Source of the DNA: a virus
Strand: one strand, 5' to 3'
Length of the DNA stretch: 20,954 nucleotides
IMG/VR virus record: IMGVR_UViG_3300020455_000107
Span: 1 to 20,954 of that record
This document shows positions 2,825-3,906 of this stretch, one piece after another. Numbering within the stretch: position 1 is the stretch's first letter; each line of letters opens with the position of its first letter. The translations under genes and the position numbers were made by a program. Below the pieces are notes generated by a model. That model saw only the letters and a list, made by a program, of their open reading frames with translations, was not told where the DNA came from and made no database searches.

Positions 2825-3682
2825 ATGGAAGAAAAAGCAAACCCTTTAACCAAGTACTATAGACAACCAGCGATCTATATCAAGTTTCCATCTGGCGGAA
2901 AATACTATACTGATGACATAGTCACACCAACAGAGAACGGAGAACACGCAGTATTGCCAATGACTGCGAAAGATGACCTATCATTTAAAACACCTGATTC
3001 ACTCATGAGCGGACAATCCACAGTTGATGTCATAAAATCATGTGTGCCAGACATCAAAGATCCGTGGAAACTCGTAAATTACGATGTCGATACTGTTTTG
3101 ATTGCAATCAGAATCGCAGGTTACGGAGAAACAATGGATGTACAAACATCTGTGCCAACAATCAATGAGGCTGTGTCACACACAGTTAATTTGCCGTCGA
3201 TGTTAGAGCAGATCACCCAAACATCCATACAAGAATCTACAACGTTGCCCAATGGAATGAAGATAAAAGTAAAACCATTGACATACAAAATGATGACAGA
3301 AACCCAACTTAAAACTTTTGAACAACAAAGAAAGTATCTGCAACTCAACAAGGCACAGATCAGCGACGAAGACAAAGCAAAAATGTTCAATGAAAGTTTT
3401 AAAACACTCACAGACTTAAATTCACAACTGTTGTTGTCCAACATCGAAACAATCACTCTACCATCAGGTGAGCAAGTATCTGATTCAGCACAGATAAAAG
3501 AATTCATCGAGAATGCAGAGTCGAAATTGGTTCAAGAAGTTGAGTCAGCACTGATCAGAATAAGACAGCAGGGTTCATTGAAACCAATGACTGCAAAATC
3601 CACAGAGGAACAGATTAAGAAAGGCGCACCAGCAACATACCAAGTGCCGATCACGTTTGACAACGCAAATTTTTTCGGATAA
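2825..3682 (+). CDS. gp26: Baseplate hub assembly protein gp26 (T4_baseplate family)
   Basis: A 285-residue protein with an early KFPSGGKYY motif (residues 20-28) and a conserved LPMTAKDDLSFKTPDSLMSG segment at about residues 44-63. Both are typical of the T4 gp26-like baseplate family (known to me as the T4_baseplate domain; not searched). T4 gp26 is shorter, 208 residues, and acts in assembly of the baseplate hub, probably as a chaperone. The start has a purine-rich AGAAGAAG immediately upstream and a late promoter at 2774. The next ORF begins in the -1 frame two bases after the gp26 stop. The gp26 end contains the in-phase heptamers AAATTTT (3667-3673) and TTTTTTC (3670-3676), so part of the product may be a gp26-gp51 fusion. 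Confidence 0.85.
   Translation: MEEKANPLTKYYRQPAIYIKFPSGGKYYTDDIVTPTENGEHAVLPMTAKDDLSFKTPDSLMSGQSTVDVIKSCVPDIKDPWKLVNYDVDTVLIAIRIAGYGETMDVQTSVPTINEAVSHTVNLPSMLEQITQTSIQESTTLPNGMKIKVKPLTYKMMTETQLKTFEQQRKYLQLNKAQISDEDKAKMFNESFKTLTDLNSQLLLSNIETITLPSGEQVSDSAQIKEFIENAESKLVQEVESALIRIRQQGSLKPMTAKSTEEQIKKGAPATYQVPITFDNANFFG
3667..3676 (+). promoter_or_regulatory. Candidate -1 ribosomal frameshift site
   Basis: The zero-frame codons at the end of gp26 are GCA AAT TTT TTC GGA TAA. Two overlapping X-XXY-YYZ heptamers are in phase: A-AAT-TTT (3667-3673) and T-TTT-TTC (3670-3676). A one-base backward slip enters a frame with no stop until 3906, giving a fusion of about 360 residues ending in the gp51-like sequence. 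No convincing downstream pseudoknot was found by eye, so function is an inference. Confidence 0.45.
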
Positions 3683-3684
3683 AG

Positions 3685-3906
3685 TTGCTGACACTCACGG
3701 AATCTGACATTATATCATTTTTCAAAGATCTAGACAATGAAGCAAAAAACATCAAGCACGAGTTACTCAAAATATGTTGGTATATGCGAGGTGGCGTAAC
3801 ATGGCAGGAATCACTGCATATGAGCAACGAAGAACGCAAGATCATATCAGACATTATAAAAGAGAACCTGGAAACAGCAAAGAAAACAGGCCAGCCATTC
3901 TTCTAA
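3685..3906 (+). CDS. gp51: gp51-like baseplate hub assembly factor (73 aa as a free ORF; possibly made as a -1 fusion to gp26)
   Basis: A small helical protein with the core ICWYMRGGVTWQESLHMS followed by NEERKIISDIIKEN. This resembles the short gp51 proteins annotated after gp26 in marine T4-like phages (T4 gp51 itself is 249 residues and is called the hub assembly catalyst). The assignment rests on position and recalled pattern. There is no ATG in the first part of the frame: the first Met is at WYM, inside the conserved core. A free product would have to start at TTG 3685, with GGA at 3677-3679 as a poor ribosome-binding site. The frame is open upstream to 3661, inside gp26 and in the -1 phase. 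Together these fit expression by frameshifting, as known for tail assembly chaperone pairs of many tailed phages. Confidence 0.7.
   Translation: MLTLTESDIISFFKDLDNEAKNIKHELLKICWYMRGGVTWQESLHMSNEERKIISDIIKENLETAKKTGQPFF

Follow-up and report, generated by a model that had tools for sequence, protein, structure and literature searches.

The window analysed here, a virus record 20,954 bases long, carries a gp26-like gene whose 3' end is overlapped by a second reading frame in the -1 register. The gp26-like ORF, designated the short form (TAC-N), occupies positions 2825-3682 on the plus strand, encodes 285 aa and ends with TAA at 3680-3682. Its product matched PF12322 (Pfam T4_baseplate) with E 6.4e-11 and 42.8 bits against a cut-off of 24.5, and matched PHROG_150 (baseplate hub) with E 1.7e-15. 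The overlapping ORF, which would form the C-terminal part of a long form (TAC-NC), lies at 3661-3906 on the plus strand and is bounded by a TGA at 3658-3660 and a stop codon at 3904-3906. Its earliest in-frame ATG, at 3784, falls within the conserved core WYMRGG, and the sole ATG, GTG or TTG before that core is a TTG at 3685-3687 (plus strand), which is unconserved. The sequence agreed in these respects with the original prediction of a gp51-like ORF in the gp26 -1 frame, open back to 3661 and lacking an ATG before its core.

The final gp26 codons (3665-3682) read GCA AAT TTT TTC GGA TAA. They contain the slippery heptamer T-TTT-TTC at 3670-3676 on the plus strand, in the X-XXY-YYZ phase of gp26, and an overlapping second heptamer, A-AAT-TTT, at 3667-3673 on the same strand and also in phase. 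The -1 frame would add 76 residues (RIKLL...GQPFF) to gp26 after a slip.

Conservation of the junction among relatives

Relatives were collected by two IMG/VR scans, of which the scan for gp26 gave 64 loci and the scan for the -1 part confirmed 583 stretches, the best 80 of which were kept. Together with three phage records and the window, these made up 148 loci with 107 distinct junctions, and counts are given for the distinct junctions because many contigs recur in both scans. T-TTT-TTC was present in the gp26 phase in 107/107 distinct junctions and 148/148 loci of this set (best 80 of the 583 -1-part stretches included), and the second ORF sat in the -1 frame in every one of its 148 loci. 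Both heptamers named in the original prediction are in phase, but only T-TTT-TTC is conserved; A-AAT-TTT was in phase in 94 of the 107 junctions of the same set and is probably dispensable. The codon supplying the first T of the heptamer was AAT in 135 loci, GAT in 7, CAT in 3 and AGT in 3. The stop codon lay 10 nt from the start of the heptamer in 140 loci, 16 nt in 1 and 19 nt in 7, and since this distance varies, the heptamer and not the stop is the fixed point.

A one-base indel mimics a -1 step, and a single gene split by a sequencing or assembly error was therefore weighed as an explanation. It has a negligible probability and was ruled out by the independent genomes that share the -1 relation, namely the 148 loci and 25 jumbo-type and T4-superfamily records.

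We compared codon usage at conserved gp26 positions in 45 representatives with less than 70% gp26 identity, counting a column as conserved when at least 90% of sequences had one amino acid. This gave 35 conserved columns, or 34 able to vary in codon once a Met column was set aside. Only the two slip-site Phe columns were codon-invariant (TTT in 45/45 and TTC in 45/45), and this invariance exceeds chance. The joint codon probability, log10 p = -50.8, treats the lineages as independent and serves for illustration only.

A T run could also act during transcription, where slippage of RNA polymerase would create a mixed mRNA pool and two products from it. The run is present at the site, and reaches 8 T in HTVC008M. 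However, the window run has just six T, and six are usually short for transcriptional slippage. The codon phase is moreover fixed, as NNT-TTT-TTC, in 107/107 distinct junctions, which speaks against slippage of the polymerase because only ribosomal tandem slippage needs phase. We regard the transcriptional explanation as very improbable.

The -1 frame was found to be coding. Median dN/dS between the window and 36 relatives of its clade was 0.07 in the -1 frame against 1.3 and 2.3 in the remaining frames, with dS saturated (median 3.1). Stop codons were absent from the -1 frame in 38/38 sequences and present in both other frames in 38/38. Purifying selection acts on the -1 frame only.

The -1 ORF could nevertheless be made as a separate protein, by translational coupling or restart just past the gp26 stop. 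Candidate starts lie near that stop, with a TTG at codon 6 (window 3685) in 36/107 distinct junctions (best 80 of the 583 -1-part stretches included), an ATG at codon 9 in 23/107 and an ATG at codon 4 in 9/107. Translation could restart at the window TTG, which has a weak GGA ahead of it, and the -1 ORF is annotated as its own gene in some phages, such as Phosso and 121Q. However, the start position differs between relatives, and 30 of the 107 distinct junctions had no ATG, GTG or TTG in the first 19 codons of the -1 frame. Among 105 complete -1 ORFs, 34 lacked an ATG within the first 36 codons, 14 had no ATG, GTG or TTG there, and only 14 combined a start with a Shine-Dalgarno-like 4-mer; the PA5oct -1 ORF has no such start codon anywhere. 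The lack of a gp51 ATG foreseen in the original prediction held in that no start is conserved, but an ATG was absent from the first 36 codons in just those 34 ORFs. The unconserved start is evidence against a separate gene. Restart also leaves unexplained the invariant heptamer and the residues FFR at the junction, which are conserved in the relatives upstream of any start. We judge a separately started protein improbable.

The heptamer and its phase are invariant, the -1 frame is coding and the start is unconserved, and for these reasons -1 frameshifting is very likely the correct reading; this comparative evidence supports the predicted joining of gp26 and gp51. Taken with the assignment of function below, we conclude that one mRNA most probably gives a tail assembly chaperone in a short and a long version via -1 ribosomal frameshifting at T-TTT-TTC. 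The majority of ribosomes would stop at the gp26 TAA at 3680 and release the short form (TAC-N). A minority would step back one base at 3670-3676, re-reading T-TTT-TTC as TTT-TTT, bypass the stop and continue to 3906, giving the long form (TAC-NC) with a helical C-terminal extension of 76 residues. The short and extended forms, which would share the N-terminal domain, are products that the gene layout predicts, and we infer the slippage itself, the slippage rate and the chaperone mechanism.

Distribution and relation to the T4 genes

RaK2, 121Q, PA5oct, Atu_ph07, CBB and their relatives were the nearest named relatives in the phage collection, and their jumbo-type gp26 shares about 25-32% identity with window gp26 in cases where the greater part aligns. 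A gp26 match was present in 62 records, many of them near copies, and from these we chose 18. The first nine were PA5oct, Atu_ph07, Phosso, 121Q, RaK2, Munch, Vibrio 2.275.O, XacN1 and RAS14, and the others were CBB, BF, GAP32, XbC2, XaC1, Hallingskeid, Kaldavass, SCTP-2 and LR756511. PA5oct, Atu_ph07 and Phosso are also among the 107 distinct junctions. An in-phase T-TTT-TTY before the stop and a -1 ORF were found in 18/18 records (16 TTTTTTC, 2 TTTTTTT). For LR756511 the gp26 match is confined to residues 10-112 of the RaK2 query (286 residues), and the heptamer lies 23 codons upstream of the stop. The profile of the fused window family matched that of 121Q, RaK2, Munch and Vibrio 2.275.O at 100% (E 2.1e-62), with the heptamer shared.

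Eight T4-superfamily genomes were searched with PHROG_150 and PHROG_634. Like the window, S-PM2, P-SSM2, Syn9, HTVC008M, KVP40, phiM12 and Cr30 (7/7) had an in-phase T-TTT-TTY at the gp26 end, as TTTTTTC in 4 and TTTTTTT in 3, with the gp51 C-terminal part in the -1 frame. The predicted conservation of the heptamer across the junction alignment held as T-TTT-TTC in 107/107 distinct junctions and as T-TTT-TTY in the seven searched T4-superfamily phages besides T4.

T4 and Aeromonas phage 31 differ from the window in having two separate genes in place of a -1 frameshift. Genes 26 and 51 of T4 are separate and divergently transcribed, and T4 gp51, a long paralogue, contains a gp26-like domain of its own, the gene having AGGAG upstream of its ATG. 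T4 gene 26 (L148, 5803-6429) ends in GLKEFFELL. Its Phe-Phe sits where the slip-site residues align, but the slip site is gone in this gene because the two codons are TTC-TTT, which is not slippery. In Aeromonas phage 31, genes 26 and 51 lie apart and are divergent, and the C-terminal end of gp26 is without Phe-Phe. RB43 contains a separate gp51-matching gene. The contrary case named in the original prediction, a separate gp51 that has its own ATG and lacks a slippery sequence, exists in T4 and Aeromonas phage 31, which are distant and have a different gene layout. The description of the locus as a T4-type arrangement holds for the T4 superfamily at large and for the jumbo-type phages but not for T4 itself.

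At the protein level, the window product belongs with the T4-like chaperones to one family, as T4 gp26, T4 gp51 and window gp26 all match PHROG_150. The C-terminal end of T4 gp51 additionally matches PHROG_634, and since both match, T4 gp51 consists of a gp26-like domain and a C-terminal part. The -1 part of the T4-superfamily frameshifters barely resembles that of the window by sequence. PHROG_634 matched the window -1 part alone through 1/42 members (E 0.052), and with hhalign the -1 part family profile gave 3% to the cyanophage gp51 profile and 0.5% to T4 (reversed control 0.08%), so that hhalign gave no significant match of the -1 part alone to T4 gp51. The fused window-family profile, in contrast, aligned with the fused T4-superfamily profile colinearly through the junction (97.6%, E 4.4e-12); against single T4 sequences it gave 4.4% for gp51 and 1.4% for gp26. 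The fused T4-superfamily profile aligned with T4 gp51 near end-to-end (97.0%, E 1.2e-10), and its alignment with T4 gp26 stopped just past the slip-site FF (98.7%, E 3.9e-16). Where these alignments end indicates that the short product has its T4 counterpart in gp26 and the long product in gp51. The label gp51-like in the original prediction thus appears justified through the fused protein, which provides all of its support, and not through the window -1 part by itself.

The window -1 part had zero Pfam matches, and its PHROG matches were all weak. The AlphaFold2 model of the 78-residue part was helical with a mean pLDDT of 91.9; its search against the viral library returned nothing at E<=0.001, and the top of 21 PDB chains found by VIA-align was a RecQL4 fragment (Z 5.5), a match regarded as a common helical arrangement. 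Solved structures searched by sequence with both profiles gave nothing meaningful. The structure model of window gp26 (pLDDT 85.0) had 51 matches at E<=0.001 among predicted viral proteins, and several of these are annotated as proteins of the baseplate hub or of T4-like hub assembly. The match of this model to the HK97 chaperone 2OB9 was weak (Z 6.0, rmsd 6.7 A, 89 residues aligned; Foldseek E 5.4), and 2OB9 ranked 4/800, below unrelated proteins.

Tape-measure-like neighbour and the probable chaperone role

Upstream of gp26, a divergently transcribed gene of 725 aa occupies positions 570-2747 on the minus strand. A resemblance of its product to tape measure proteins is supported by matches to PHROG_167 (E 2.8e-7) and PHROG_794 (E 3.7e-4); its top PHROG, 14121 (E 1.7e-7), is labelled just 'virion structural protein'. 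Of the 98 distinct-junction loci that extend 600 nt or more upstream, 81 had a homologue there on the opposite strand and none was found in 17, and the longest opposite-strand ORF in the upstream region of Atu_ph07 had 157 codons. The product of 570-2747 is probably the tape measure protein, and the PHROG_167 match and the 81 loci bear out the prediction of a tape-measure-like gene adjoining the pair. The octamer TATAAATA, which we take to be the T4-type late promoter octamer, was found at 2774, 9548 and 16525 on the plus strand and at 2807 on the minus strand. Two of these octamers, on opposite strands, sit between the tape-measure-like gene and gp26.

Lambda gpG/gpGT resembles the window in layout, the basis on which we compared them, with a short chaperone and its -1-extended form, both connected with the tape measure protein, as reviewed in PMC5009743. 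The same review describes lambda-type G/GT frameshifting as widely conserved 'except T4' (PMC5009743). By analogy with gpG/gpGT, many short copies and a few long copies would coat the tape measure protein, the C-terminal part of the long form would recruit tail tube subunits, and both forms would depart before tail completion. The lambda slip site is GGGAAAG.

A tail-assembly-chaperone role is likely on the basis of the homology to T4 gp26/gp51, the tape-measure neighbour and the G/GT-like layout. We read the pair as chaperones because the fused protein is homologous to T4-superfamily chaperones and has a tape-measure-like neighbour. The frameshift could be real and its products structural baseplate hub parts, as annotation calls gp26 a baseplate hub subunit and the T4 tail review (PMC3004832) mentions genetic studies favouring gp26 in the hub. 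However, in the same review gp26 and gp51 appear among the hub assembly chaperones and gp51 is reported to be missing from the final particle (PMC3004832), and a short and long pair adjoining a tape-measure-like gene matches the G/GT pattern. We therefore consider hub parts an unlikely identity for the products.

The idea of a tail chaperone pair in T4-like phages predates the present analysis. Vladimirov, Gautam and Davidson reportedly identified the chaperones of T4-like phages (2022, Virology 566:9-15), and we infer that these chaperones were gp26 and gp51. According to the PRFect paper, which cites Vladimirov et al., some T4-like phages have one short and one fused long chaperone gene in place of frameshifting (PMC10885494). 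PMC12846349, also citing Vladimirov et al., refers to frameshift signals of the poly-T kind in the TAC-N genes of T4-like phages, and proposes a conserved -1 frameshift at the poly-T motif GTTTTT at the TAC-N 3' end of the TAC locus of Vandenendeviridae/Andersonviridae. These phages are of different families from the window. Sullivan et al. 2010 (PMC3037559) found cyanophage gp51 to be short of the first ~200 residues of T4 gp51. These residues may be explained as equalling gp26, joined by the frameshift.

In open-licence PubMed Central papers we found no report that combined jumbo phage, tail assembly chaperone and frameshift, and among the matches listed there was no mention of frameshift with 121Q, RaK2 or GAP32. 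No claim of priority is made as to the jumbo-type phages, since the literature search covered open-licence PubMed Central papers only. The two-product -1 slip is a trick known from many phages, of which the window family is very probably a well-conserved new example. In the phage group of the window, the -1 half is easily overlooked by annotation. With the frameshift, a conserved 78-residue part that has no dependable start and no clear Pfam or PHROGs match would gain a place in tail assembly in a range of phages, both marine and jumbo-type.

Surroundings of the slip site

The T4-superfamily frameshifters and the window family differed in the sequence upstream of the heptamer. A Shine-Dalgarno-like 4-mer was present 5-24 nt upstream in 7/7 and 5-20 nt upstream in 6/7 of the T4-superfamily phages other than T4, against a chance level of 10-13%. 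In contrast, over identical distances none was found in the window family, with 0/107 junctions at 5-24 nt (chance about 16%) and 0/107 at 5-20 nt (chance 13%).

Downstream of the heptamer, Atu_ph07, Phosso and PA5oct have a strong stem, whereas none was found for the window clade. RNAalifold on 28 sequences of this clade gave zero downstream stems, longest-stem scans gave nothing convincing downstream, and an all-helix scan of 29 sequences, which also served for pseudoknots, gave nothing convincing, its top helices using the T run itself. A 5-bp helix pairing -26 (in gp26) with +113, and so spanning the heptamer, also ranked top in the RNAalifold output; its 98.6% pairing, with 3 further pair types, is an uncontrolled figure. 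The window downstream RNA folded more weakly than its own shuffles (z of +1.3 to +1.5 in MFE), and 58 representatives across all clades had a mean z of -1.1 to -1.4. That neither an upstream nor a downstream stimulator turned up for the window clade in these scans counts against the frameshift reading.

We also scanned 110 nt downstream in 119 junctions, which comprised the distinct ones and 13 named phages, against mononucleotide shuffles. The longest stem was matched by at most 5 of 100 shuffles in 32 junctions and by at most 1 in 27, and most junctions are thus without a stem. In 14 relatives picked for a stem with arms separated by 55-72 nt, the stem starts 3-6 nt past the heptamer and 3/7 pairs are altered on both sides; full pairing in these relatives is by construction, because the register was fitted individually. 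All seven pairs of the scanned stem form in 17/106 junctions, a count taken at the best of 18 registers and carrying no chance level. Stems of 7-14 bp, 3-80 nt past the heptamer and some with paired changes, were seen in the window relatives L117, L121, L123, L124, L129, L137 and others.

The sequence GGAATCTGA (clade consensus GGANTCTGA) is at 3699-3707 on the plus strand and starts 23 nt past the last heptamer base. The third base of its TCT codon was identical in 38/38 window-clade sequences, with third-base conservation of 0.92 two codons earlier, 0.55 one codon earlier and 0.79 one codon later. Background third positions in the clade are mostly ~0.5, yet some elsewhere reach 0.95. RNAalifold and the all-helix scan of the window clade found no pairing partner or conserved stem for GGANTCTGA, and an unexplained RNA-level signal at this position is possible.

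Tentatively, and with somewhat less than even confidence, U-UUU-UUY frameshifting may have been ancestral for the T4 superfamily and the jumbo-type phages, with its stimulators swapped repeatedly and T4 a derived exception. The stimulator would be an upstream Shine-Dalgarno-like site in cyanophages and their relatives, a downstream stem in some window relatives and jumbo-type phages, and something unrecognised, perhaps near GGANTCTGA, in the marine clade of the window. T4 would have lost the slip site (TTC-TTT) and split both forms into genes 26 and 51. The phages form a natural series, with differing surroundings around a constant slip site.

Two further ORFs lie downstream of the junction. 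Immediately 3' of the -1 ORF, a coiled-coil-like ORF of 134 aa at 3958-4362 was without a clear family in Pfam and PHROGs, and had tblastn matches in 56/107 distinct-junction loci, adjacency not being demanded. The ORF at 4838-5290 encodes a SegE-like GIY-YIG endonuclease (PF19835, E 2.6e-37); its top PHROG (447) carries the label 'NAD synthetase', which is probably wrong.
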